A stretch of 27,233 nucleotides of DNA, taken from positions 1 through 27,233 of the IMG/VR virus record IMGVR_UViG_3300022723_000079; one strand, written 5' to 3'. Positions within the stretch are counted from its first letter, which is position 1. Every line of letters starts with the position of its first letter. Below, piece by piece: positions 6,192 to 27,207 of this stretch. The notes below the pieces were generated by a model. It did not search any database, was not told the origin of the DNA, and worked only from the letters and a program-made list of their open reading frames with translations. The DNA is from a virus. Both the position numbers and the translations under genes were made by a program.

Positions 6192-7916
6192 TTAGGCGCC
6201 CGGATTCTTGTACAGGCCGCGGAAGTCGAGGGCGCCAGCGCCGAAGTCGAGCCGGGCCTTGAACCGCACGCCGTCAACCTCGAAACCCATCTGGCTTTCC
6301 GTGTAGACGCCGTCCTGGCCATCGAGATAGGCATATTCGATGGTGTCGATCGCATCCGGGTCTGCCGCCAGATACCACGCCGTCGCCGACGCCTCATCGA
6401 GCAGCGGCTCGATCACCGGTGTCAGCGACCGGCTGTATGGGTTGATCTTGTCCTGCTCGACCGGGACCATGTTCTGGGACGTGAACTGCAACGCCACCGT
6501 TTCGAGCGCGGCCGGCACGCACAAAGTGACCGCCTCGACACGGAGGTTGTAACCCTTCTCATCGCGCTTGCCGCCAGGCGCCAGTGAGGTCTGCTTGCGC
6601 ATCGCGGTACGGGCCGCGCCGATCGTTGCCACCGCGATCGCACCGCCAGAGCCGGCAAGGTTGCCGTGATTGGCATGAAACAGTGCGATCGTGTCAGTCA
6701 GCGCCGCGTTGGTCGTGATGATGCCCCAGACGATCTCGTTTTCGAGGGCGCCGGCCGCGGCACCCCAGGCCCGCGGCAACCGCGACAAGGCGTCGAGATC
6801 GTCGTTGACCAGGGTCTGCCGGGTGATCGCGACGATCCGGCCGAACGTATCGAGCTGGAACTGCTCGGACGCTTCACCGATCGTGCCCTGCTGGTACTCA
6901 CCATGTTCGTTGAGTTTCAACAGACGCGGCGCATCACCGATCTGGGCGCGGATCAACGGGCGGAAGTCGGTCGCCGTGCCCCGCCGTGCAATCCGGCGAT
7001 AGGTCCGCGGCGCCTTGTCGTAAGCCGCACGCAAGCGGCGGTTGACTTCGTTACCGAGAATGATCGGGAAATCGGAGGTCGTATGCATCCCGGCGCGCAA
7101 CCCGAGCTGGCTTGAACCGGCTGCCAGCGCCAAGGTGGCCATTTCGAGTCTGGTCAGGCCACGGGTGTTGACCCCTTCGCCCTCGAGACAATCGCGCGCC
7201 ATGTCGATCAGTGTCATGCCGCGATACTCACGGGCGCCATCATCAAGCTCGATATCGCCAGGGCTGACACGATGCGCCAGGGCATTGCCCATTCTCTCGA
7301 TGCGCGACTCGCGCTCGTCACGGCCGGACGCCGTTGCCCGCACCGGCGTGCGGCCGGGCAGGTTCTCGTTTGACTGCTCGGCGAACTGCCGCTGCAGCGC
7401 TTCGCGCACCTGGTCGATCGTCTGACCATCACGGATAAACGCGTCGGCCTCGGCTTCCTCAAAACCGAAGTCACGCACCGCCTGGCGAATGTTGTCGATC
7501 CGCGCGCGTTCGGCCGCTGTGGCTTCCTCGCGAACGGTCTCGATTGCCGCCTGGTCGCCACCTGGTGCCGACCGTGCTGCCGCCGCCTCGGCCTCAGCCT
7601 CGGAAATCTTCGATCGGACATCCTCGATCTCGGCAAGGATGCCCTTGTGCTCGTCCTCGATCTCGCGCGCACGTTCATCAGACGTGCCGTCAGTGATTTC
7701 CGCCATCTTGTCCTTGGCGCGGCGCTCGAGCGCGGCCAGATCCTTACGCAACGCGATCAGCACCGGGCTGGCCGTCATCACGTCAACGAAATCAAGTTCG
7801 GTAAACGCCGGAAGTTCCGCGAACGATGGCACGCCGAACACCATCGCGGTGACGGCAATGGCGAAAGCGGCCCCAAGTGCAACAGCCGCCAGATTGACCT
7901 TGGACAAAACCCGCAT
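6192..7916 (-). CDS. Major capsid protein with N-terminal coiled-coil (scaffold-like) domain
   Basis: The start is set at the ATG at 7916, because AAGGAG lies 8 nt upstream; a GTG at 7925 overlaps that ribosome site. The 574-residue product has three parts. Residues 1-33 are hydrophobic and resemble a signal peptide. Residues about 50-200 are charged and helical (LRKDLAALERRAKDKMAEIT and an Glu/Ala-rich stretch), like the delta/scaffold domain of HK97-type capsids. From about residue 260 the sequence (TTSDFPIILGNEVNRRLRAA, RIVAITRQTLVNDDL, NPYSRSLTPVIEPLL) is like the Mu gpT and protease-capsid-fusion capsid families. The upstream U35 protease would remove the delta-like part during head maturation. 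The capsid role is well supported. The N-terminal signal-like segment is odd. Confidence 0.88.
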   Translation of the reverse strand: MRVLSKVNLAAVALGAAFAIAVTAMVFGVPSFAELPAFTELDFVDVMTASPVLIALRKDLAALERRAKDKMAEITDGTSDERAREIEDEHKGILAEIEDVRSKISEAEAEAAAARSAPGGDQAAIETVREEATAAERARIDNIRQAVRDFGFEEAEADAFIRDGQTIDQVREALQRQFAEQSNENLPGRTPVRATASGRDERESRIERMGNALAHRVSPGDIELDDGAREYRGMTLIDMARDCLEGEGVNTRGLTRLEMATLALAAGSSQLGLRAGMHTTSDFPIILGNEVNRRLRAAYDKAPRTYRRIARRGTATDFRPLIRAQIGDAPRLLKLNEHGEYQQGTIGEASEQFQLDTFGRIVAITRQTLVNDDLDALSRLPRAWGAAAGALENEIVWGIITTNAALTDTIALFHANHGNLAGSGGAIAVATIGAARTAMRKQTSLAPGGKRDEKGYNLRVEAVTLCVPAALETVALQFTSQNMVPVEQDKINPYSRSLTPVIEPLLDEASATAWYLAADPDAIDTIEYAYLDGQDGVYTESQMGFEVDGVRFKARLDFGAGALDFRGLYKNPGA

Positions 7917-15551: not shown

Positions 15552-15588
15552 ATCAGTCCGAAAACGCCAAAATCAACATCTTGTGGTG

Positions 15589-15819
15589 TGTCCCACTGCG
15601 GCCCACAATTCACGCGCAGTGGGACAGGGTTTTTGTCAACAAAATCAACGCGGTGTCCCAGTTGTCCCAGTTGTCCTAGTACAAAACACACCTTTCATGC
15701 CCGCGCGCGCATATGGGGCCGGAAATCACTGGGACACCTGGGCCAAGTGGGACAGCGCCTTGAAAAACAAGGGCAATTCAGTGTCCCACTTGCCGGTGAT
15801 GTCCCAGTGGCACTGGGAC
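15589..15819. repeat. GTCCCA/TGGGAC repeat array, candidate iteron origin or operator cluster
   Basis: Nine exact copies of GTCCCA occur on one strand or the other, starting at 15590, 15620, 15655, 15664, 15730, 15748, 15783, 15801 and 15814. Degenerate copies lie at 15673 and 15739. Two pairs form inverted repeats: a 12-bp pair, TGTCCCACTGCG (15589-15600) with CGCAGTGGGACA (15615-15626), and GTCCCAGTG-G-CACTGGGAC (15801-15819). Direct copies at 15655, 15664 and 15673 are spaced by 9 bp. The array fills the gene-free gap directly downstream of the primase and helicase genes. That makes a replication origin with iterons the first hypothesis; a regulatory site is the alternative. Confidence 0.75.
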
Positions 15820-15828
15820 ACTTACGCC

Positions 15829-17229
15829 CTAGTCACCGCCCGCCCAGTCGATCGGTGAACCGACCGCGCGCTCAAATCCCGCCCTCGCTTCGTCCAATTC
15901 GGGGAACAGGTAGCCCCACTTCCTGATCTCGTCGTACTCGCCATCCTCCTCGCTCTTGCGCACCTTGATGCTGCGCCGGCGGCGCGACAGGGCCGGCATG
16001 ATCTCTTTCAGCTTCTTTGAAAAGGTGAACTCGTCGACCGGGCGCTTGATGTTGAAGGTCTCGCAGTGCTTCACGTAATCGCCATGCAGGTATTGCGTGC
16101 GCACCCAATCGACCCATTCGCCAGATCCGCGAAGCTGCTCGCCGTCCATCAGGCGCTGATGCAGCCAGCCCTCGAAACTCTCGAACGAGCGCACCATCTG
16201 CGAAAACATGGCGTCGGTCGCCGGGATCGCGCGGACGTTGATCGGCTCCAGGTTCCAGTTGAGCAGTTCCCAGAGCAGCGCCTCGCGCCCGCCTGGTGCG
16301 TTCATCTGGTCCATCACTTTGCCGAAATAATCGTGATCCTGGGCGCGGGTTTCGGGAACCTCGATCACCGCGTGGCGGCGCTCGCGCATATGCACCGGGA
16401 CAGACCAGTCCTCGTTGGAGGTGACCATCAGGCGCACGTAGTTGGGCAGGCGGATCGGGTCGACGCCCTTGCGCTCGATCATCTGGATATCCGACGTGAT
16501 CAGCGACTTCAGCCGCCCCTCCGCCGTCTTGTCGCCGGCCCAGAACCCCTCGTCGGCCTGCAGCAGCAGGCAGGCCTCCATGTGTGCGTTGAACTGCCCG
16601 GTCAGGTAGCGCGGGGAATCGACCAGGCAATAATGCGGCTCGATCAGCGACCCGATGACCCGCCCGACCAAGGTCTTGCCCGCCCCCATGGCGCCGCGCA
16701 GCACCAGCGAGGTGCCGAAGCGTTCGCGCGGGCGCTGGAACAGCGAGGCGAACCACGCCATCACCCATTGAAAGAGCGAGGCATCGCCGTTGCAGATCAC
16801 CTTTTCGATGTGCTCGATGAACAGCGAGCAATCGCCGGATTTGTCCGGCTTCACTTCAAAGCCGTTCCACAGGTTGTAATAGCCCTCGCGCCCGCCCGCG
16901 CCGTCCTTGTCGGGGACGAACTCGATGCCCTCGAACTGGCGCCGCTGGGTCGATTTCAGCCACAGCTCGCCATAGGTGGTCCAGCGGTCGTTATAGTTGA
17001 CCGGGTGGTTGGCGAACCACGCCTTGAAGGCGGCCTCAGAGAGGAACTGGATGCGCTCGCCGACCGGCGCGTCCGATCCGTTTTCTTTCAGGATCACGGC
17101 CCGCGACCCGACCAGCGCCAGGGCAAATTGTTCGTTGATCGCCTCGATCACGCTATCGTCATAAGGCGCGGTCGGCAGGCGCACCACGTTGGCGCCGTCG
17201 ATGCCCGATTTGACGGCGTCATCGCTCAT
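15829..17229 (-). CDS. DUF5906 primase-helicase (SF3-type replicative helicase)
   Basis: I use the ATG at 17229, which overlaps the primase gene by 11 nt. The 466-residue protein contains FEGIEFVPD and YYNLWNGFEVKP, then an ATPase core. The core has Walker A GAMGAGKT (Lys185), Walker B LLLQADE (Asp226, Glu227) and the SF3 motif MVTSNEDWSVP (Asn272). This pattern is typical of DUF5906 proteins in phages and plasmids and belongs to the D5/P4-type helicases. It should unwind DNA at the phage origin, and it partners with the upstream primase. The C-terminal region is basic (RRRRSIKVRKSEED) and may bind DNA. The GTCCCA array lies just after its stop codon. Confidence 0.9.
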   Translation of the reverse strand: MSDDAVKSGIDGANVVRLPTAPYDDSVIEAINEQFALALVGSRAVILKENGSDAPVGERIQFLSEAAFKAWFANHPVNYNDRWTTYGELWLKSTQRRQFEGIEFVPDKDGAGGREGYYNLWNGFEVKPDKSGDCSLFIEHIEKVICNGDASLFQWVMAWFASLFQRPRERFGTSLVLRGAMGAGKTLVGRVIGSLIEPHYCLVDSPRYLTGQFNAHMEACLLLQADEGFWAGDKTAEGRLKSLITSDIQMIERKGVDPIRLPNYVRLMVTSNEDWSVPVHMRERRHAVIEVPETRAQDHDYFGKVMDQMNAPGGREALLWELLNWNLEPINVRAIPATDAMFSQMVRSFESFEGWLHQRLMDGEQLRGSGEWVDWVRTQYLHGDYVKHCETFNIKRPVDEFTFSKKLKEIMPALSRRRRSIKVRKSEEDGEYDEIRKWGYLFPELDEARAGFERAVGSPIDWAGGD

Positions 17230-18250
17230 GCCGCCCCGCCTGCAAGACATCGTTCCAGTCCTTGCCCCTGGGCGGCCATGCCTGGCGCACCGTCCGCCCC
17301 ATGAGCGCGAGCGCATTCGCGGCCTTTTTCACGGTCCGGCGGCCCTCGCGCCAGTCGGCCATATCGTTGTCGGCGCAGATCGTCACCTCGCGGATCTCGG
17401 CGGGCAGATCGAGCACGCCGAAATTGTGCAGGCTGATCGCCGCCCAGGACGCCTTGCCGGTCGCCTGCAGCACCGCGAGCGATGTCTCGATGCCCTCGGC
17501 AAAGCGCACGTGACGGGCCACGGGGCAAAGGCGGATCGCGCCGCCTTTCATGGCCCCGGCGACCATCTTGACCGGTTTGACATCGGCCTTGCCCGCGCCA
17601 TCTGCCGCCAGGTAGGTGCGATGAACCCCGATCGCGCGGCCGTCACCGGCCTGGATCACCGCGACCATGGCCGGGTGCCGGGTTCGGGTCGGCCAGTGCA
17701 TCAGGTCAGGCGCATGGCGCAAGGTCGCCGGGATCGGACACGTGATGCCACGGCGCCTGAGATACGTCTCGACCGGCGACCCTTCGGCCAGCTCGGCGCC
17801 ACGCCAAATACCCAAAATTTTCGCGAAGTCATGCTCTCTCGCGCGCCTGTCGCTATCATCAGGCTGGCGGGCCGTATCACCATTCTTTCCTTCGTTTGGA
17901 GGTGGTCCACTCCCGGCGCTGGAATCCCGTACCGTGTTGCCGCCGTCGCTGGCGATCCCCAGTTCGCCGGCCAGGTACGCCAGGGCATCCTTGAAATCGA
18001 GGCCTGAAAATTCAGCCAGGAACTTGAACACATCGCCCGCCGCACCGCAGCCGAAACACTTGTAGAAGGTGCGGGTCACGTGGAATGACGGCGTCTTTTC
18101 GCTATGGAACGGGCAGCAGGCCCAATAATCGCCCTTGCGCGGGTTCGACTTCTTGCGGTCCCAGGCGACGCCAGAGAGCCGCCCGACAACGTCTGCCAGG
18201 TCGGTCCGCGCCTTGACGGCCGTCACGTCGATATTTGAACCGCCCGACAT
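17219..18250 (-). CDS. DNA primase with CHC2 zinc finger and Toprim domain
   Basis: The 343-residue protein opens with a CHC2 zinc-binding domain: CPFHSEKTPSFHV (Cys46, His49) and CFGCG (Cys65, Cys68). The C-terminal half is a Toprim domain: FAEGIETSLAV (Glu252) and the DxD motif CADND (Asp294, Asp296). Together they form a DnaG-like phage primase that makes RNA primers for replication. The linker (residues about 100-140) is low-complexity. Repeat copy 2 encodes its NTVRDSSAGSGPPPNEGK segment, so this part of the protein is derived from the repeat. It starts 2 nt after the upstream stop and is coupled to the helicase gene. Confidence 0.92.
   Translation of the reverse strand: MSGGSNIDVTAVKARTDLADVVGRLSGVAWDRKKSNPRKGDYWACCPFHSEKTPSFHVTRTFYKCFGCGAAGDVFKFLAEFSGLDFKDALAYLAGELGIASDGGNTVRDSSAGSGPPPNEGKNGDTARQPDDSDRRAREHDFAKILGIWRGAELAEGSPVETYLRRRGITCPIPATLRHAPDLMHWPTRTRHPAMVAVIQAGDGRAIGVHRTYLAADGAGKADVKPVKMVAGAMKGGAIRLCPVARHVRFAEGIETSLAVLQATGKASWAAISLHNFGVLDLPAEIREVTICADNDMADWREGRRTVKKAANALALMGRTVRQAWPPRGKDWNDVLQAGRHER
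17896..17941 (-). repeat. Dispersed 46-bp repeat, copy 2 (inside primase linker)
   Basis: It matches copy 1 at 36 of 46 positions and copy 3 at 35 of 46. It encodes the disordered linker between the zinc finger and Toprim domains. Flanks are also related (TCCTTCG beside it). It has the same orientation as the other three copies. Confidence 0.65.
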
Positions 18251-20514: not shown

Positions 20515-20816
20515 GAGTGCAGCACCCTCGGTGCGACCTCGTCGCAAAATCCGGCTAGCGCCTTGACGGCGACGGCACGATTGGCTTCGCAAGCCTCACA
20601 GTCACAGGACGTGTCATCGCGTATGTCCTCGAGAACCGCGATAGCAGCCCCAACACGGGCGGCGTTGCTGCGGAACGCAAAACGGCCCTTGAACGAAAAC
20701 CTCTCACCCTCGTCGGTCACCGCGACCACCGCCACGCCATCGCCCGTTGCCAGGCCCTGTTTGATGACCTCGATTGCGTCTTTTAGAAACGCCCGTCTTT
20801 CCGTGCGGTCGGTCAT
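20511..20816 (-). CDS. Hypothetical early protein with CDCEAC motif
   Basis: The 101-residue protein (MTDRTERRAFLKDAIEVIKQ, then GVAVVAVTDEGERFSFKGRF and AFRSNAARVGAAIAVLEDIR) is alpha/beta with a Cys cluster CDCEAC near residues 71-76. It could bind a metal or be a small adaptor. I do not recognise a family. It overlaps both neighbours by 4 nt, between the methyltransferase and the DUF5131 gene. Confidence 0.75.
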   Translation of the reverse strand: MTDRTERRAFLKDAIEVIKQGLATGDGVAVVAVTDEGERFSFKGRFAFRSNAARVGAAIAVLEDIRDDTSCDCEACEANRAVAVKALAGFCDEVAPRVLHS

Positions 20817-22096
20817 GGGCGGACCTCCGCCGTGGCCGGATCAGCGAACAGATCACCTTGCGCGGCGGCCTCTCGCAGACGGTGGCAGGCGATTTCGAAA
20901 TAGGTCAGGTCTTGTTCGATGCCGATAAACCGGCAGCCCTCGGCCAGCGCCGCGATGCCGGTCGAGCCGGTGCCCATGAACGGATCAAGCACGAGAGCGC
21001 CCTTCGGCACCACCAGCCGCGCCAACCAACGCATCAGATCGAGTGGCTTGACTGTCGGGTGAAAGGCGATCTCGTGGCCTTGCGCCTTGTGCCACTCGCG
21101 CTCGGTTGCCTCGATCACGCGGGCACACGCACGACACCAACCCGCCCGCTCGTCCGCCGTCGCCTTGGCGGTATAGAAAAATCGTGCCGCGCTGCCGGCA
21201 TCGCCTTTTGCCGATGGCTCCGCGCCAGTCACGGGCGCGCGCTGACCTGGCACCTCGGGAAAAAAACCCTCGACCTCGGCCGAACCGTCATGAACCACGT
21301 TGGCCGGCCAACGGCCACGCGGATTCTGTTCATAGACGCCAGGTTCGCCGGCCTCACCGTAAACGCCGGTGCCAGACGAACCCAGGGCAACATTGCGTCT
21401 TATTTTTTTGATATCCTCGTTGGTTTCTACCCGGCACCCGTCGATATTCAAAGCACCGGTGCCATGGCGCTGCACGTTGTCGACGTTAGTGCCCTCGAGC
21501 GGCGCGCGGGCGAGACAGATCGGCTCGTGTGCCGGTTTCAGTGCCGTGCCCCACCCGGCCCATTGCCGCGCCGCGTCTGTCGCTGGGCGGGTTTTTGTCG
21601 GCACATAGTCGCGCCCACTATCCTTGAGCCATGACCCGCCGGCATTCTGATCGGCGCCGAGAATCATGCGCTTGATCGGTTTTCCTTCGGCCACGACTTC
21701 GCGTTCAACGCCAGCGGCCTTGTCGATCGCCTTGGCAATATCGAGTGACTTCGGAAACCCTGACCCGTAAAGCCACATGATCTGATCTCGAATCTCGAAG
21801 CCAGCGGTCTCGATCGCCGCCGCCAAGCGGTGATAAGTCCGCGCGCCCGAAAACGCTGCACAGTGACCGCCAGGTTGGAGCAAACGCCGCACCGCGCCCC
21901 AAGTCTCGGGCTTGAAGGCAACGCCGCCGCCATCCCAGCGCCGACCCATGAAACCACCGGGCGCCTTATCGCTCGCGGTCAAGTGATACGGCGGATCGGT
22001 CACAACCGCATCGACCGGGTCCAGCGTCGGCAGAATGTCGAGGCAATCGCCCAGATACAGCGTGGCGTTGCCGATCTGCTCGACGCGCGCACTCAT
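20813..22096 (-). CDS. DNA methyltransferase, beta-class (N6_N4_Mtase)
   Basis: The 427-residue protein has the catalytic motif DPPY (residues 34-37) near the N-terminus and the SAM-binding motif FMGTGST (373-379) near the C-terminus. Catalytic before SAM is the order of beta-class N6-adenine or N4-cytosine methyltransferases. About 330 residues lie between the two motifs and probably include the target recognition domain. The central part contains IMWLYGSGFPKSLDIAKAID and NVVHDGSAEV. The C-terminus has HPTVKPLDLMRWL, typical of the family. Solitary phage methyltransferases usually protect DNA from restriction or alter gene expression. Target sequence is unknown. No restriction enzyme is nearby. 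Confidence 0.94.
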   Translation of the reverse strand: MSARVEQIGNATLYLGDCLDILPTLDPVDAVVTDPPYHLTASDKAPGGFMGRRWDGGGVAFKPETWGAVRRLLQPGGHCAAFSGARTYHRLAAAIETAGFEIRDQIMWLYGSGFPKSLDIAKAIDKAAGVEREVVAEGKPIKRMILGADQNAGGSWLKDSGRDYVPTKTRPATDAARQWAGWGTALKPAHEPICLARAPLEGTNVDNVQRHGTGALNIDGCRVETNEDIKKIRRNVALGSSGTGVYGEAGEPGVYEQNPRGRWPANVVHDGSAEVEGFFPEVPGQRAPVTGAEPSAKGDAGSAARFFYTAKATADERAGWCRACARVIEATEREWHKAQGHEIAFHPTVKPLDLMRWLARLVVPKGALVLDPFMGTGSTGIAALAEGCRFIGIEQDLTYFEIACHRLREAAAQGDLFADPATAEVRP

Positions 22097-23015: not shown

Positions 23016-23509
23016 GCCCTGGCCCTTTCGTTCTTTTGCAGCTTCCGCGCGGTCACCTGGGCGGCGATCGCGCGTTCGCGGTCGATGTGGACAAGCTGGT
23101 CAAGCTTCATTTTCACCGCGCCGCGGCTGACGCCCAGCGACTGCGCAATGGTGCCCGTCGAGATGCCGGCGGCATCGAGCCGACGCAGCCGGTCGACCCG
23201 GTCCGTGTCCCAGGTCGCGGCAAGCGCCTTGACGGCGCCGTTGCCGTTGGCGCCGCCGCGCCGCGGCTTGATGGCCAGATAATCGAAGGTGCCGAGCCCA
23301 TATTGATCAAGGCCGGTGCGGCGCTGCATCAGATGCACCTCGCCGTGCGCGGCCATGCGGTGAAGCCGCTCGGCGAGCAGATCGAGATCCTCGTTCCACG
23401 CCCTGGCGCCGGCCAGGTCGCCGCGGAAATACAGCACCCGCTCGCCAGGTGGCGCCTCGGCGACGCGCGGCAGGATATCGTTGCAGGTGAAACCGTTAGT
23501 GGCGCTCAT
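23012..23509 (-). CDS. GcrA-like helix-turn-helix regulator with N-terminal phage domain
   Basis: The ATG at 23509 overlaps the stop of the upstream gene. The 165-residue protein has an N-terminal domain (VLYFRGDLAGARAWNEDLDL, HGEVHLMQRRTG and FDYLAIKPRRG) seen in phage proteins. A C-terminal helix-turn-helix follows at about residues 100-140: WDTDRVDRLRRLDAAGISTG, then TIAQSLGVSRGAVKMKLDQL. The second part resembles the start of GcrA, the alphaproteobacterial sigma-70-associated cell-cycle regulator (W..ERV..L..LW..G.S...IA..LG.VTRNAV..K). This suggests a phage transcription regulator that could influence host or phage promoters. I see no GcrA sigma-binding tail, so it may act only as a DNA-binding protein. 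Confidence 0.72.
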   Translation of the reverse strand: MSATNGFTCNDILPRVAEAPPGERVLYFRGDLAGARAWNEDLDLLAERLHRMAAHGEVHLMQRRTGLDQYGLGTFDYLAIKPRRGGANGNGAVKALAATWDTDRVDRLRRLDAAGISTGTIAQSLGVSRGAVKMKLDQLVHIDRERAIAAQVTARKLQKNERARA

Positions 23510-24510
23510 GTGCGCCCCCATATTTCGTATTTGCAGAAATCGGCGCACGGGCGGTCCCAGATCGCGATGCCCAGCGCCCGGTCAGCATCACCGCCGACGC
23601 CAAGATAATCCTCGCGCCAGTCAAGGTTGACCCAGAGCGCCGGGCGGTGACGCTCGAATTGCTTGCGACCCGCTTGGCACGCCCAGAGCCGTTCGGGCAG
23701 AACCAGCGCCATCTGTTCGACGCCGATGGCAAAGGCGTGATCGATCACCTCGCGAACGCGGTCGAACGGTGGGTTCGATGCCAACACCGTCGCCGGCGCG
23801 GCGGACACCTTGAAGAAATCCTGACCGGTCTTGATGTCGCCGGCGATCACCGTGCGGCCCGATGCTTCCAGCGCCCGCGCAAAGCGTTCATCGCCGACGA
23901 ACGGTTCCCAGACCGGGCCGGGCGGACTCGTCTGCGCCGGGGCCAGCCAACGCGCCACCAGGGCAGCGACGATGGCCGGCGGCGTCGGGTAAAAGTCATC
24001 GGTCTCGCGGGCCTTGCGCTTGCCACGCAACAAGGTCACCGGCACCTTGCCGGGCGCGGCCTCGGCTTCTTCGCGCCAGGCGGCGAGGTTCTTTTCGAAT
24101 GTTTCCTTTCCCAGCCCGTGAACCTTGCGTGCGACATGGGCCAAGTTCTTGTCGATGCCGGCATCGGCCAGGGTTGGTGAAACCGGGTTGCCGACGAACC
24201 CGGTTTCCGTTGGCGCGGCCTTCTTCGGCCGGCCGCCCTTGTTGAGACCCTCGGTTTCGCGCTGCGCTGCTATCAGTTCGCCGAGGCGATACTCGGCGCG
24301 AATGCGGATCTCGGCGCCGGCAATCTCGATCTCGCGGTTCCTGGCGATCTGCCCATAGGCGCGCAGCGCTTCTGCACTGTCGCGGATCTTCGCGACCTCG
24401 TCGGTGCGGGCCGCCTCGGCGACCGCGCGCGCCAGCGCCTCATAGCGGGCCAGCGCTTGGTCGGCGTCGAACGGCGCGGCCGCCGGCAAGGTGGCGACGG
24501 CCCCGCTCAT
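23506..24510 (-). CDS. Methyltransferase-like protein with NPPF motif and N-terminal phage domain
   Basis: The 334-residue protein has two parts. The N-terminal ~150 residues are helical (ALARYEALARAVAEAARTDE, then RIRAEYRLGELIAAQRET and EGLNKGGRPKK), a module common in phage proteins, sometimes next to MT-A70 enzymes. The C-terminal part begins DDFYPTPPAIVAALV and contains WEPFVGDERFARAL (from residue 201), then VLASNPPFDRV with NPPF at 246-249. This is the layout of a SAM-dependent N6-adenine methyltransferase, with a SAM loop (WEPFVGD in place of WEPACGxG) followed by the (D/N)PP(Y/F) catalytic motif. The changed SAM loop makes activity uncertain. It is coupled to both neighbours in the early operon. 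Confidence 0.8.
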   Translation of the reverse strand: MSGAVATLPAAAPFDADQALARYEALARAVAEAARTDEVAKIRDSAEALRAYGQIARNREIEIAGAEIRIRAEYRLGELIAAQRETEGLNKGGRPKKAAPTETGFVGNPVSPTLADAGIDKNLAHVARKVHGLGKETFEKNLAAWREEAEAAPGKVPVTLLRGKRKARETDDFYPTPPAIVAALVARWLAPAQTSPPGPVWEPFVGDERFARALEASGRTVIAGDIKTGQDFFKVSAAPATVLASNPPFDRVREVIDHAFAIGVEQMALVLPERLWACQAGRKQFERHRPALWVNLDWREDYLGVGGDADRALGIAIWDRPCADFCKYEIWGRT

Positions 24511-25632: not shown

Positions 25633-25749
25633 TAAAGCCTATGATAAAGGCGATTCGGCCTCATGCACAAGGGTTTTTTACCAGATTGTGTGGATAATTC
25701 GTTGCTGCACACTAGGGCTTGCATATATCCGCAGCCAGGTACGCACAGC
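25633..25749. promoter_or_regulatory. Divergent cI/cro-like control region
   Basis: Minus-strand promoter for the Cro-like gene: -35 TTGTGC (25670-25665), 18-bp spacer, -10 TATCAT (25646-25641). Plus-strand promoter for the repressor: -35 TTGCTG (25702-25707), 16-bp spacer, -10 TATATC (25724-25729). Possible operators are GCCT-N7-AGGC (637-651 of 25 kb, overlapping the cro -10) and GTGTG-N15-CACAC (25688-25712, overlapping the repressor -35). The promoter matches are imperfect, and the operators are inferred from symmetry only. Confidence 0.5.
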
Positions 25750-26355
25750 GTGACACGCGACGAAACACAGGAAGCAATCGCCGAATGGCTCGGCCAGGTC
25801 GCCAAGATGACCAATAAGAGCCTGACCCAGATTGCCCGCAAGGCTGGCGTGAACCAGACCACCGTCACGCGCGCCTACAAGAACCCGGAAAACTATCAGA
25901 ACGTCATGTCGACCTCGACGATCATGCGGATCGTCAACGAGCACAAGGTGCCACCGCCGCCGTTGCCTGGGTTCGGCCAGGCGGTCGGCTTCGCCGAGCC
26001 GGAAGTGATCCCGATCGAGGACCCCGACCTCCGCGGTGATGATCTGACCCCCGATCAGTACGCGATCGAGGTCAATACCCGGGCGATGATGGATGCCGGA
26101 TACATGCCCGGCGACATGATGCTGGTCGACATGGCCGAAACGCCGCGCGACGGCGACGCGGTGATCGCACAGAACTACGACAACCAGCAAGGAACAGCCG
26201 AGACCGTGTTCCGGCGCTTCAAGCCGCCACACCTGGTTGCGATCTCACCCGACCATGATCAATTCGAGCCGCTTTATGTCGACGGCAAGAAAGTGATGAT
26301 CGTCGGCGTCGTGGTGAAGTCTTGGCGCTGCCGCAAGCATTCAAACGCCGCCTGA
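25750..26355 (+). CDS. S24/LexA-fold phage repressor A, Ala at the nucleophile position
   Basis: The start is taken at the GTG at 25750, because an upstream ATG (25663) would begin inside the divergent promoter region. The 201-residue protein has a helix-turn-helix at about 23-44 (KSLTQIARKAGVNQTTVTRA) and a C-terminal S24-type domain. There the sequence EVNTRAMMDAGYMPGDMMLV followed by D aligns with the usual V.G.SM...G...GD. pattern, but the Ser position is Ala112. The usual Lys of the tvK segment is absent too (ETVFRRF). Autocleavage in response to DNA damage is therefore unlikely. It should keep the lysogenic state. Its neighbour B is a colinear paralogue of equal length, and the two genes face each other. 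Confidence 0.82.
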   Translation: MTRDETQEAIAEWLGQVAKMTNKSLTQIARKAGVNQTTVTRAYKNPENYQNVMSTSTIMRIVNEHKVPPPPLPGFGQAVGFAEPEVIPIEDPDLRGDDLTPDQYAIEVNTRAMMDAGYMPGDMMLVDMAETPRDGDAVIAQNYDNQQGTAETVFRRFKPPHLVAISPDHDQFEPLYVDGKKVMIVGVVVKSWRCRKHSNAA

Positions 26356-26357
26356 AT

Positions 26358-26963
26358 TCATCCCGCCCGCACGGTGGCGTCCTGACGCTCGCGCCATTGC
26401 TTCACCACGACGCCATGAAGTGTTGTGTTGTTGATGCCGACCACGGCGGGGCTGATGATTGTTTCCCCAGACGTATTGCCGACAATAAACGGCGGCACGA
26501 ATATTCGGAGCACGAATTCCGATCTCATTCGCCGGATGTTGTCAACCACTGCAATGACCGCGTCGCCGGAAACCGGCGCAATGCTTGGGTCCACGAGCAA
26601 ATGGTCGCCGGGCACATAGCCAGACAGCAGTAAAGATCGGCCGCACACAATCCACTCTGTCGGACCGGGATCAGGCTGGGCGCCAACCGGCCCGACCCGC
26701 TCGACATCAGGCCCGGAACCGACAAGCGCCCGGTCACTGAGCCCAGGCACGACCGGCGGCGGCACATCAAGCGCCGTGATGATTTTCATGATCGTTGTCA
26801 GTGACGGCGTGTTGCCGTACTTCGGATCACGGCCGGCGGCACGCGAGATCGTCCCCGGTGTCAGGTTCGCCCGCTCGGCGATGGCGTTGAAGGTCAAGCC
26901 GGTCTGTGCCGGCAAGCTCTCGATCCAGACGGCGATGATCTCGCGGATATCGCGCGGGTCCAT
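26358..26963 (-). CDS. S24/LexA-fold phage repressor B, paralogue of A
   Basis: The ATG at 26963 begins a 201-residue protein (MDPRDIREIIAVWIESLPAQ). It has a helix-turn-helix at about 24-45 (TFNAIAERANLTPGTISRAA) and an S24-type C-terminal domain (TEWIVCGRSLLLSGYVPGDH, then LLVD). Ser110 is at the nucleophile position. The segment that usually holds the Lys reads SEFVLRIFVPP, with no Lys. It shares the linker pattern TIM(R/K)I...VPPP.(L/V)PG with A and has the same length. Its stop is 2 nt from A's stop, with no terminator visible between them. It may compete with A for DNA, or act on its own promoter. Confidence 0.8.
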   Translation of the reverse strand: MDPRDIREIIAVWIESLPAQTGLTFNAIAERANLTPGTISRAAGRDPKYGNTPSLTTIMKIITALDVPPPVVPGLSDRALVGSGPDVERVGPVGAQPDPGPTEWIVCGRSLLLSGYVPGDHLLVDPSIAPVSGDAVIAVVDNIRRMRSEFVLRIFVPPFIVGNTSGETIISPAVVGINNTTLHGVVVKQWRERQDATVRAG

Positions 26964-26970
26964 GGACGGC

Positions 26971-27207
26971 CTACAACGCTGCGGACGGCCGGCACGCCAC
27001 CGCGTCGGATGCCTGGCCGGTTGCATCGCTGATCACATCGGCGCCGGCGGTCTGGCCGTCCAGCAGATTGTTGACCAGGGCCGATGCCACCGCCACCGCC
27101 TTGCCGGCAGAGAGGAACCGGCATTCCACGGTGACGAGCTGCCAATCCCGGCCACACCCATTGACCACCGTGACGATCGCCGCCGGCACCGTGCCGGTGC
27201 CGAACAT
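26971..27207 (-). CDS. Hypothetical small protein upstream of repressor B
   Basis: An ATG at 27207 (AGAAAG close upstream) gives a 78-residue product: MFGTGTVPAAIVTVVNGCGR, then DWQLVTVECRFLSAGKAVAV and ASALVNNLLDGQTAGADVIS. A GTG at 27231, or a start beyond the window, is possible, so it may be partial. The alternating hydrophobic pattern looks like a small alpha/beta protein. Family unknown. It ends 7 nt before repressor B and is probably co-transcribed. Confidence 0.5.
   Translation of the reverse strand: MFGTGTVPAAIVTVVNGCGRDWQLVTVECRFLSAGKAVAVASALVNNLLDGQTAGADVISDATGQASDAVACRPSAAL

Follow-up and report, generated by a model that had tools for sequence, protein, structure and literature searches.

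What are the short repeats that lie, on both strands, directly behind the DUF5906 helicase gene of a tailed phage? We address this question for a virus record of 27,233 nucleotides (IMGVR_UViG_3300022723_000079; the whole stretch of DNA analysed, here called the window). A sequence-only reading had interpreted the repeats as a candidate replication origin composed of iterons bound by an initiator, with an operator as the alternative. We conclude that the array is very probably an iteron-type replication origin of the phage, at which the DUF5906 SF3 helicase would act as its own initiator, binding via its C-terminal winged helix and loading two hexamers. The origin interpretation is favoured by the relatives of the locus, by covariation, and by analogy with a proven satellite origin of like design.

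The box array behind the helicase gene

The record is a 27-kb virus contig of a contractile-tailed phage. It encodes terminase, portal, capsid protease, tail sheath and tape measure proteins and is therefore assigned to a tailed phage, not to a PICI satellite. The helicase and its partner gene, a primase, are listed with the elements of the array in Table 1; the helicase probably starts near position 17228 (MSDDAV...) rather than where the open reading frame is listed to begin. Relatives of the helicase are found in alphaproteobacterial genomes (Microvirga, Methylobacterium, Ancylobacter, Thalassospira, Rhodospira, Magnetospirillum). The contig also carries two DNA methyltransferase-like genes (20816–22096 and 23509–24510) and, near its end, two convergent repressor-like genes (25666–26355, plus strand; 26361–27026, minus strand), which are perhaps part of a lysis–lysogeny switch.

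Recounting the hexamer GTCCCA/TGGGAC in the window gave the nine exact copies that had been noted, at positions 15590–15819. Because the other 27 kb hold 12 copies, 0.10 would be expected per 231 bp. The clustering has a Poisson P of 2.6e-15 (~6e-10 with a rough correction over all hexamers and places), and in no 231-bp stretch of the window does another hexamer reach more than six copies. The array sets in 8 bp beyond the stop codon of the helicase gene, on its downstream side, as had been stated. Both inverted pairs described earlier are exact (12-bp arms at 15589–15600/15615–15626, and the pair at 15800–15820). The direct run reported at 15655–15678 does proceed in 9-bp steps, but its third member (15673) is GTCCTA, so that the run holds two exact copies of the hexamer only.

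From the tandem spacing, the hexamer was dropped as the repeat unit in favour of a 9-bp box, TGTCCCAGT or TGTCCCACT. Between 15589 and 15820 there are ten boxes and two degenerate ones, six per half in mirror order, and each half comprises a three-box tandem block in 9-bp steps and a 36-bp spacer. The reading by hexamers had missed the degenerate box at 15599–15607 and a second block in 9-bp steps on the other strand (15728/15737/15746), the middle member of which is TGGCCCAGG. Along the direction of the helicase gene, the layout reads F-12-R-18-R-36-F-9-f-9-F-56-R-9-R-9-R-36-F-29-R, and a further degenerate box lies between the final F and the final R (F, box on the helicase strand; lower case, degenerate box; numbers, start-to-start distances).

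Table 1. Positions of the array elements and of the adjoining replication genes in the window.
Feature	Position	Strand	Basis or remark
Box 12 TGTCCCACT (R)	15589..15597	+	
Box 11 (r), degenerate CGGCCCACA	15599..15607	+	Relatives have a full box at this place
Box 10 TGTCCCACT (F)	15618..15626	-	
Distal half spacer	15627..15655	.	GC 0.44; IHF-like site AATCAACGCGGTG at 15643-15655, one mismatch
Boxes 7-9 (RRR), tandem 9-bp block TGTCCCAGT / TGTCCCAGT / TGTCCTAGT	15654..15680	+	
Centre between halves	15681..15727	.	CG-alternating tract at ~15701-15710; GC 0.57
Boxes 4-6 (FFF), tandem 9-bp block TGTCCCACT / TGGCCCAGG (degenerate) / TGTCCCAGT	15728..15754	-	
Helicase-proximal half spacer	15755..15781	.	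36 bp start to start; GC 0.48
Box 3 TGTCCCACT (R)	15782..15790	+	
Box 2 TGTCCCAGT (R)	15800..15808	+	
Box 1 TGTCCCAGT (F)	15812..15820	-	
Whole array, proposed replication origin	15589..15820	.	Layout and box positions
Perfect IHF consensus AATCAACATCTTG	15571..15583	+	Outer edge of the array
DUF5906 SF3 (D5-type) helicase P0001, probable initiator	15829..17316	-	Pfam DUF5906, E 4e-23
Predicted C-terminal RFX-like winged-helix domain of the helicase, residues 380-495	15832..16179	-	AF2 models; covarying residues
CHC2/Toprim primase P0002, upstream partner gene of the helicase	17219..18250	-	Pfam Zn_ribbon_DnaG, 2e-24; Toprim_3, 2e-17

Layout and spelling in helicase relatives

Searches based on the helicase yielded about 130 loci, 99 of which encode a close relative (some are near-duplicates). 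The array that the earlier reading had proposed to look for beside DUF5906 genes of related phages is present downstream of the helicase in 89 of these 99 loci: 82 have an array with a score of at least 20 within 400 bp of the helicase stop codon, and in seven more it lies farther downstream, behind an inserted stretch that displaces it by up to ~0.7 kb. Seven of the remaining ten loci have a weaker version of the layout, and three have none. Control segments from coding regions of the same loci scored 16 or less (mean 8.9), and typical arrays 18–42. The first pass of box calling was dominated by CGCGCG tracts and was repeated with such words excluded.

The spelling of the box is free while the layout is kept. 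Among 80 nonredundant loci there are 45 different 9-mer boxes (e.g. TGTCCAACC, TGCCCCACC, GGTCCATGT, TGTCATAGG and TGTCAGACC), and the copies inside one phage agree. The earlier statement that no origin with this box is described therefore overlooks that the spelling varies around a conserved layout, and that SaPIs and PICIs have described origins of this type. Exactly six plus six boxes were counted in 37 of 65 scorable arrays; the helicase-proximal half has six boxes in 51 and the other half in 46 of the 65, and several arrays reach six per half with differing details. The spacer from the single box to the triple is 35 or 36 bp long in most scorable arrays. Five loci (L013, L014, L019, L093 and L033) depart from the 9-bp step within the block and have 8 or 10 bp, in most cases alike in the two mirror halves, and one locus (L065:5320-5720) has 16 copies of a TCACCACCT-like box instead of the usual twelve.

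Sites that match the IHF consensus perfectly were found in 17 arrays, compared with 0.2 predicted by shuffling the arrays. Their placement is mirrored: 11 are plus-strand sites of the distal spacer, and five are sites of the proximal spacer on the opposite strand. In the window, the distal spacer contains a site with one mismatch, and a perfect site lies just outside the array. Across the family, the longest alternating C/G run in the centre has a median of 8 (3.9 in shuffles). An AT-rich centre was found neither in the window (GC 0.57) nor in the family (0.59, versus 0.62 in coding sequence), and a lower GC content is confined to the spacers within the halves (0.44–0.48 in the window; 0.47 in the distal spacer of the family, versus 0.62 in coding sequence).

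The array is not universal for the helicase fold, since it is missing from distant lytic relatives in which primase and helicase are fused (Rhizobium phages RHph_I65 and TM26, Bordetella phage FP1, Pseudomonas phage Epa5). Arrays of similar style, with quite different boxes (GCTGCACGT, TTAACAGGT, TATTCCGTT), were seen behind distant primase-helicase fusion genes in genomes from the order that includes Ancylobacter (L185, L186, L188, L190, L192 and L193), and the design is therefore wider than the close helicase family.

The predicted reader of the boxes

The sequence-only reading had named several proteins as possible binders; covariation singles out one of them, the helicase, and within it the C-terminal winged helix. 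AF2 modelled the C-terminus as a confident winged helix with a recognition helix (residues 429–439) and wing strands (444–453 and 461–470). RFX5 is among the nearest folds of this domain in Foldseek (probability 1.00, with a weak E of 0.12), and the Pfam family RFX_DNA_binding matches the helicase C-terminus with an E of 2.5e-4 and 22.1 bits, below the gathering score of 27.

Covariation was scanned by one-residue correlation over 1162 column/residue features across the whole helicase; box register and orientation had first been set by hand in some loci, a step that brings in subjectivity. By box position, the strongest correlations were between P448 and G at position 1 (0.60), R447 and C at position 3 (negative, 0.59), R445 and C or T at position 6 (0.71), and T430 and C at position 8 (0.88). 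Covariation is weaker at positions 1 and 3. In the model, all four residues fall within the predicted reading elements. When all residues were ranked by weighted mutual information, residues 445, 447 and 448 did not come first.

On a tree built from the ATPase domain alone, 16 of the 18 changes of residue 430 share their branch with a change of box position 8 (p 4e-17). Coincident changes were also found for residue 445 with position 6 (8/18, p 1e-4), residue 448 with position 1 (6/12, p 3e-4) and residue 447 with position 3 (3/11, p 0.02). A phylogeny-restricted permutation was of little use because a single cluster held 45–51 of 63 loci.

The first 63 loci were the main basis for framing the rules, and 15 later, independent and less related loci served as a check. 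With an ungapped anchor on the wing, T or S at residue 430 went with C at position 8 in 15 of 15 loci, and the other three rules held in 14 of 15 each, the rule for residue 445 being the least blind of the four because it was sharpened after some of the later loci had been seen. The same check with a gapped alignment was weaker. The window fits all four rules, with F430 and G8, R445 and C6, R447 and T3, and R448 and T1. From this covariation and from known relatives, the C-terminal winged helix of the helicase is most likely the domain that binds the boxes.

It is very unlikely that the origin is instead read by another protein, the primase or a separate initiator, and that the helicase is merely recruited. 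The primase is encoded next door, and in the 35 loci in which it could be aligned its best columns equal those of the helicase in their correlation with box positions 1 and 3; at positions 6 and 8, however, R445 (0.79) and T430 (0.84) of the helicase are clearly above the primase columns (at most 0.56 and 0.61). The changes of T430 and of the box on the same tree branches also speak against such a reader, as does the domain content of the primase, in which Pfam recognised only CHC2, DUF7146 and Toprim domains.

An operator, at which a repressor, an antiterminator or the downstream protein P0003 would bind to control the genes past the helicase, is very unlikely, even though the array lies between two co-directional genes, just upstream of P0003, and has the inverted pairs that are typical of operators. 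By inspection, relatives keep the array but differ in the gene that follows it (short regulator-like, NusG-like or unrelated ORFs), which makes the operator alternative weak. Further points against it are the inserted stretch in front of the array in several relatives, the covariation of the box with the helicase, the 10–12 boxes per array, far above the number usual in operators, and the finding of no second array in the window. That the inverted boxes form RNA or cruciform hairpins (a terminator, attenuator or packaging signal) and are not protein-binding sites is more improbable still: pairing is conceivable between the complementary F and R boxes, and the centre contains a CG-alternating, Z-DNA-prone tract, but hairpins need neither same-strand tandem triplets at exact 9-bp steps nor one shared spelling per phage that tracks residues of a winged helix.

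A candidate satellite-type origin in phages and plasmids

As an origin read by the helicase, the array might work as follows. The RFX-like winged helix would bind each 9-bp box, as suggested by the covariation and the known relatives. Each half-origin would offer six boxes, three in tandem beside the centre and three beyond a bendable spacer of ~36 bp, and would collect one helicase hexamer. Bending of the spacer, by host IHF in some relatives or hosts, would join the distal and proximal boxes. The two facing hexamers could then open the duplex, at the centre or at the AT-richer spacers, and travel away from each other, and the CHC2/Toprim primase would provide priming. Because the box spelling and the four winged-helix residues change together, each phage lineage would have a private origin. 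The joint change further suggests that activation of a neighbouring phage's origin is avoided, as is, speculatively, exploitation by satellites. It is possible, if somewhat short of probable, that the phages form a large uncharted group of temperate phages, mostly alphaproteobacterial, with a fixed 6+6 geometry, one box per subunit of a helicase hexamer, a short residue-to-base code in the winged helix that sets specificity, and private, swappable origins.

By analogy, the array is best explained as a phage variant of the rep-ori of satellites (PICI/SaPI). The pri-rep-ori region of the Escherichia coli satellite EcCICFT073 was able to maintain a plasmid in DH5alpha unless rep was mutated, and plasmid replication dropped significantly when ori was deleted (Fillol-Salom et al. 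2018; PMC6092414). The initiator of EcCICFT073 has D5_N, DUF5906 and Pox_D5 domains, and the gap behind its gene contains an array of TGTCTACC that scores 24, compared with 9 or less in shuffles, and whose 12 boxes form two halves of six in near-mirror order. Its layout is F-9-F-49-R-19-F-11-F-9-F-34-r-11-R-19-f-37-r-12-r-9-R (FFR-FFF / RR-F-RRR), and the box resembles TGTCCTACC of some phages; since the box register is ambiguous, the recognition-helix rules cannot be transferred to the EcCICFT073 protein. The Gram-negative PICI module shares with the phage locus an SF3/D5-type initiator with D5_N/DUF5906 and a predicted C-terminal DNA-binding domain (Pox_D5/RFX-like), an origin immediately 3' of the initiator gene, and two iteron sets. 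The two differ in that the PICI is a phage satellite with one fused protein, whereas the window is from a tailed phage with a separate CHC2/Toprim primase, in that an AT-rich region between the iteron sets is described for PICIs and not found in the phage array, and in the 9-bp and 36-bp spacing, which is stricter in the phage arrays.

SaPI Rep is reported to use its C-terminal domain to recognise iterons that directly follow its own gene, apparently as two hexamers, and SCCmec Cch2 to act in a similar way (PMC7581432). Like the phage protein as we interpret it, SaPI Rep/PriRep1 and Cch2 are self-loading helicases with a C-terminal domain on iterons directly downstream; they differ in iterons, hosts and elements, and Cch2 has only three 5-nt iterons. 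Because the designs of EcCICFT073 and of SaPI Rep/Cch2 are alike, the phage array would be the same kind of origin.

In a Foldseek search, the AF2 model of the helicase (pLDDT 87) matched SaPI PriRep1 (7pds; E 3e-10) and the SaPI5 helicase (7ola; E 2e-8), with an identity of only 11–13% over the structure match. The best fold matches are the helicase region of the NrS-1 primase-polymerase (PrimPol; PDB 6k9c; E 1e-18) and poxvirus D5/E5 (E 2e-9 and weaker). We know of no box array for NrS-1 or for poxvirus D5/E5, the latter of which are not known to use a defined iteron origin. Phage P4 has two separate cis regions and another iteron. Its multifunctional alpha protein, which acts with ori/crr, is a primase-helicase that binds an origin with iterons through a winged-helix domain (PMC4234260).

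Searches on DUF5906 and on such an origin in phages, in the papers accessible without subscription, yielded no earlier description. The results point to a likely function in phages, that of an origin-reading initiator helicase, for a Pfam family still named as of 'unknown function'. They would extend the satellite-type rep-ori, said to be absent from other known bacterial replicons, to small plasmids and tailed phages, a matter of relevance to the descent of satellite origins. With the conserved count of 6+6 boxes, the assembly of SF3 hexamers at an origin can be tested directly on natural variants, and the covarying residue–base pairs allow origins and initiators to be matched from sequence alone.

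Similar arrays are present on small circular plasmids that encode DUF5906 proteins, namely a 9.7-kb Roseomonas plasmid and the 7.6-kb plasmid pMP1 of Vibrio vulnificus; a scan of ORFs on these two revealed no further replication protein. The E. coli plasmid pEC224_4 has the array and a RepB gene. On pMP1 (L202), a second and different iteron-like array of TAACTGTAC, with a spacing of ~24 bp, lies at ~6450–6900, far from the helicase gene.
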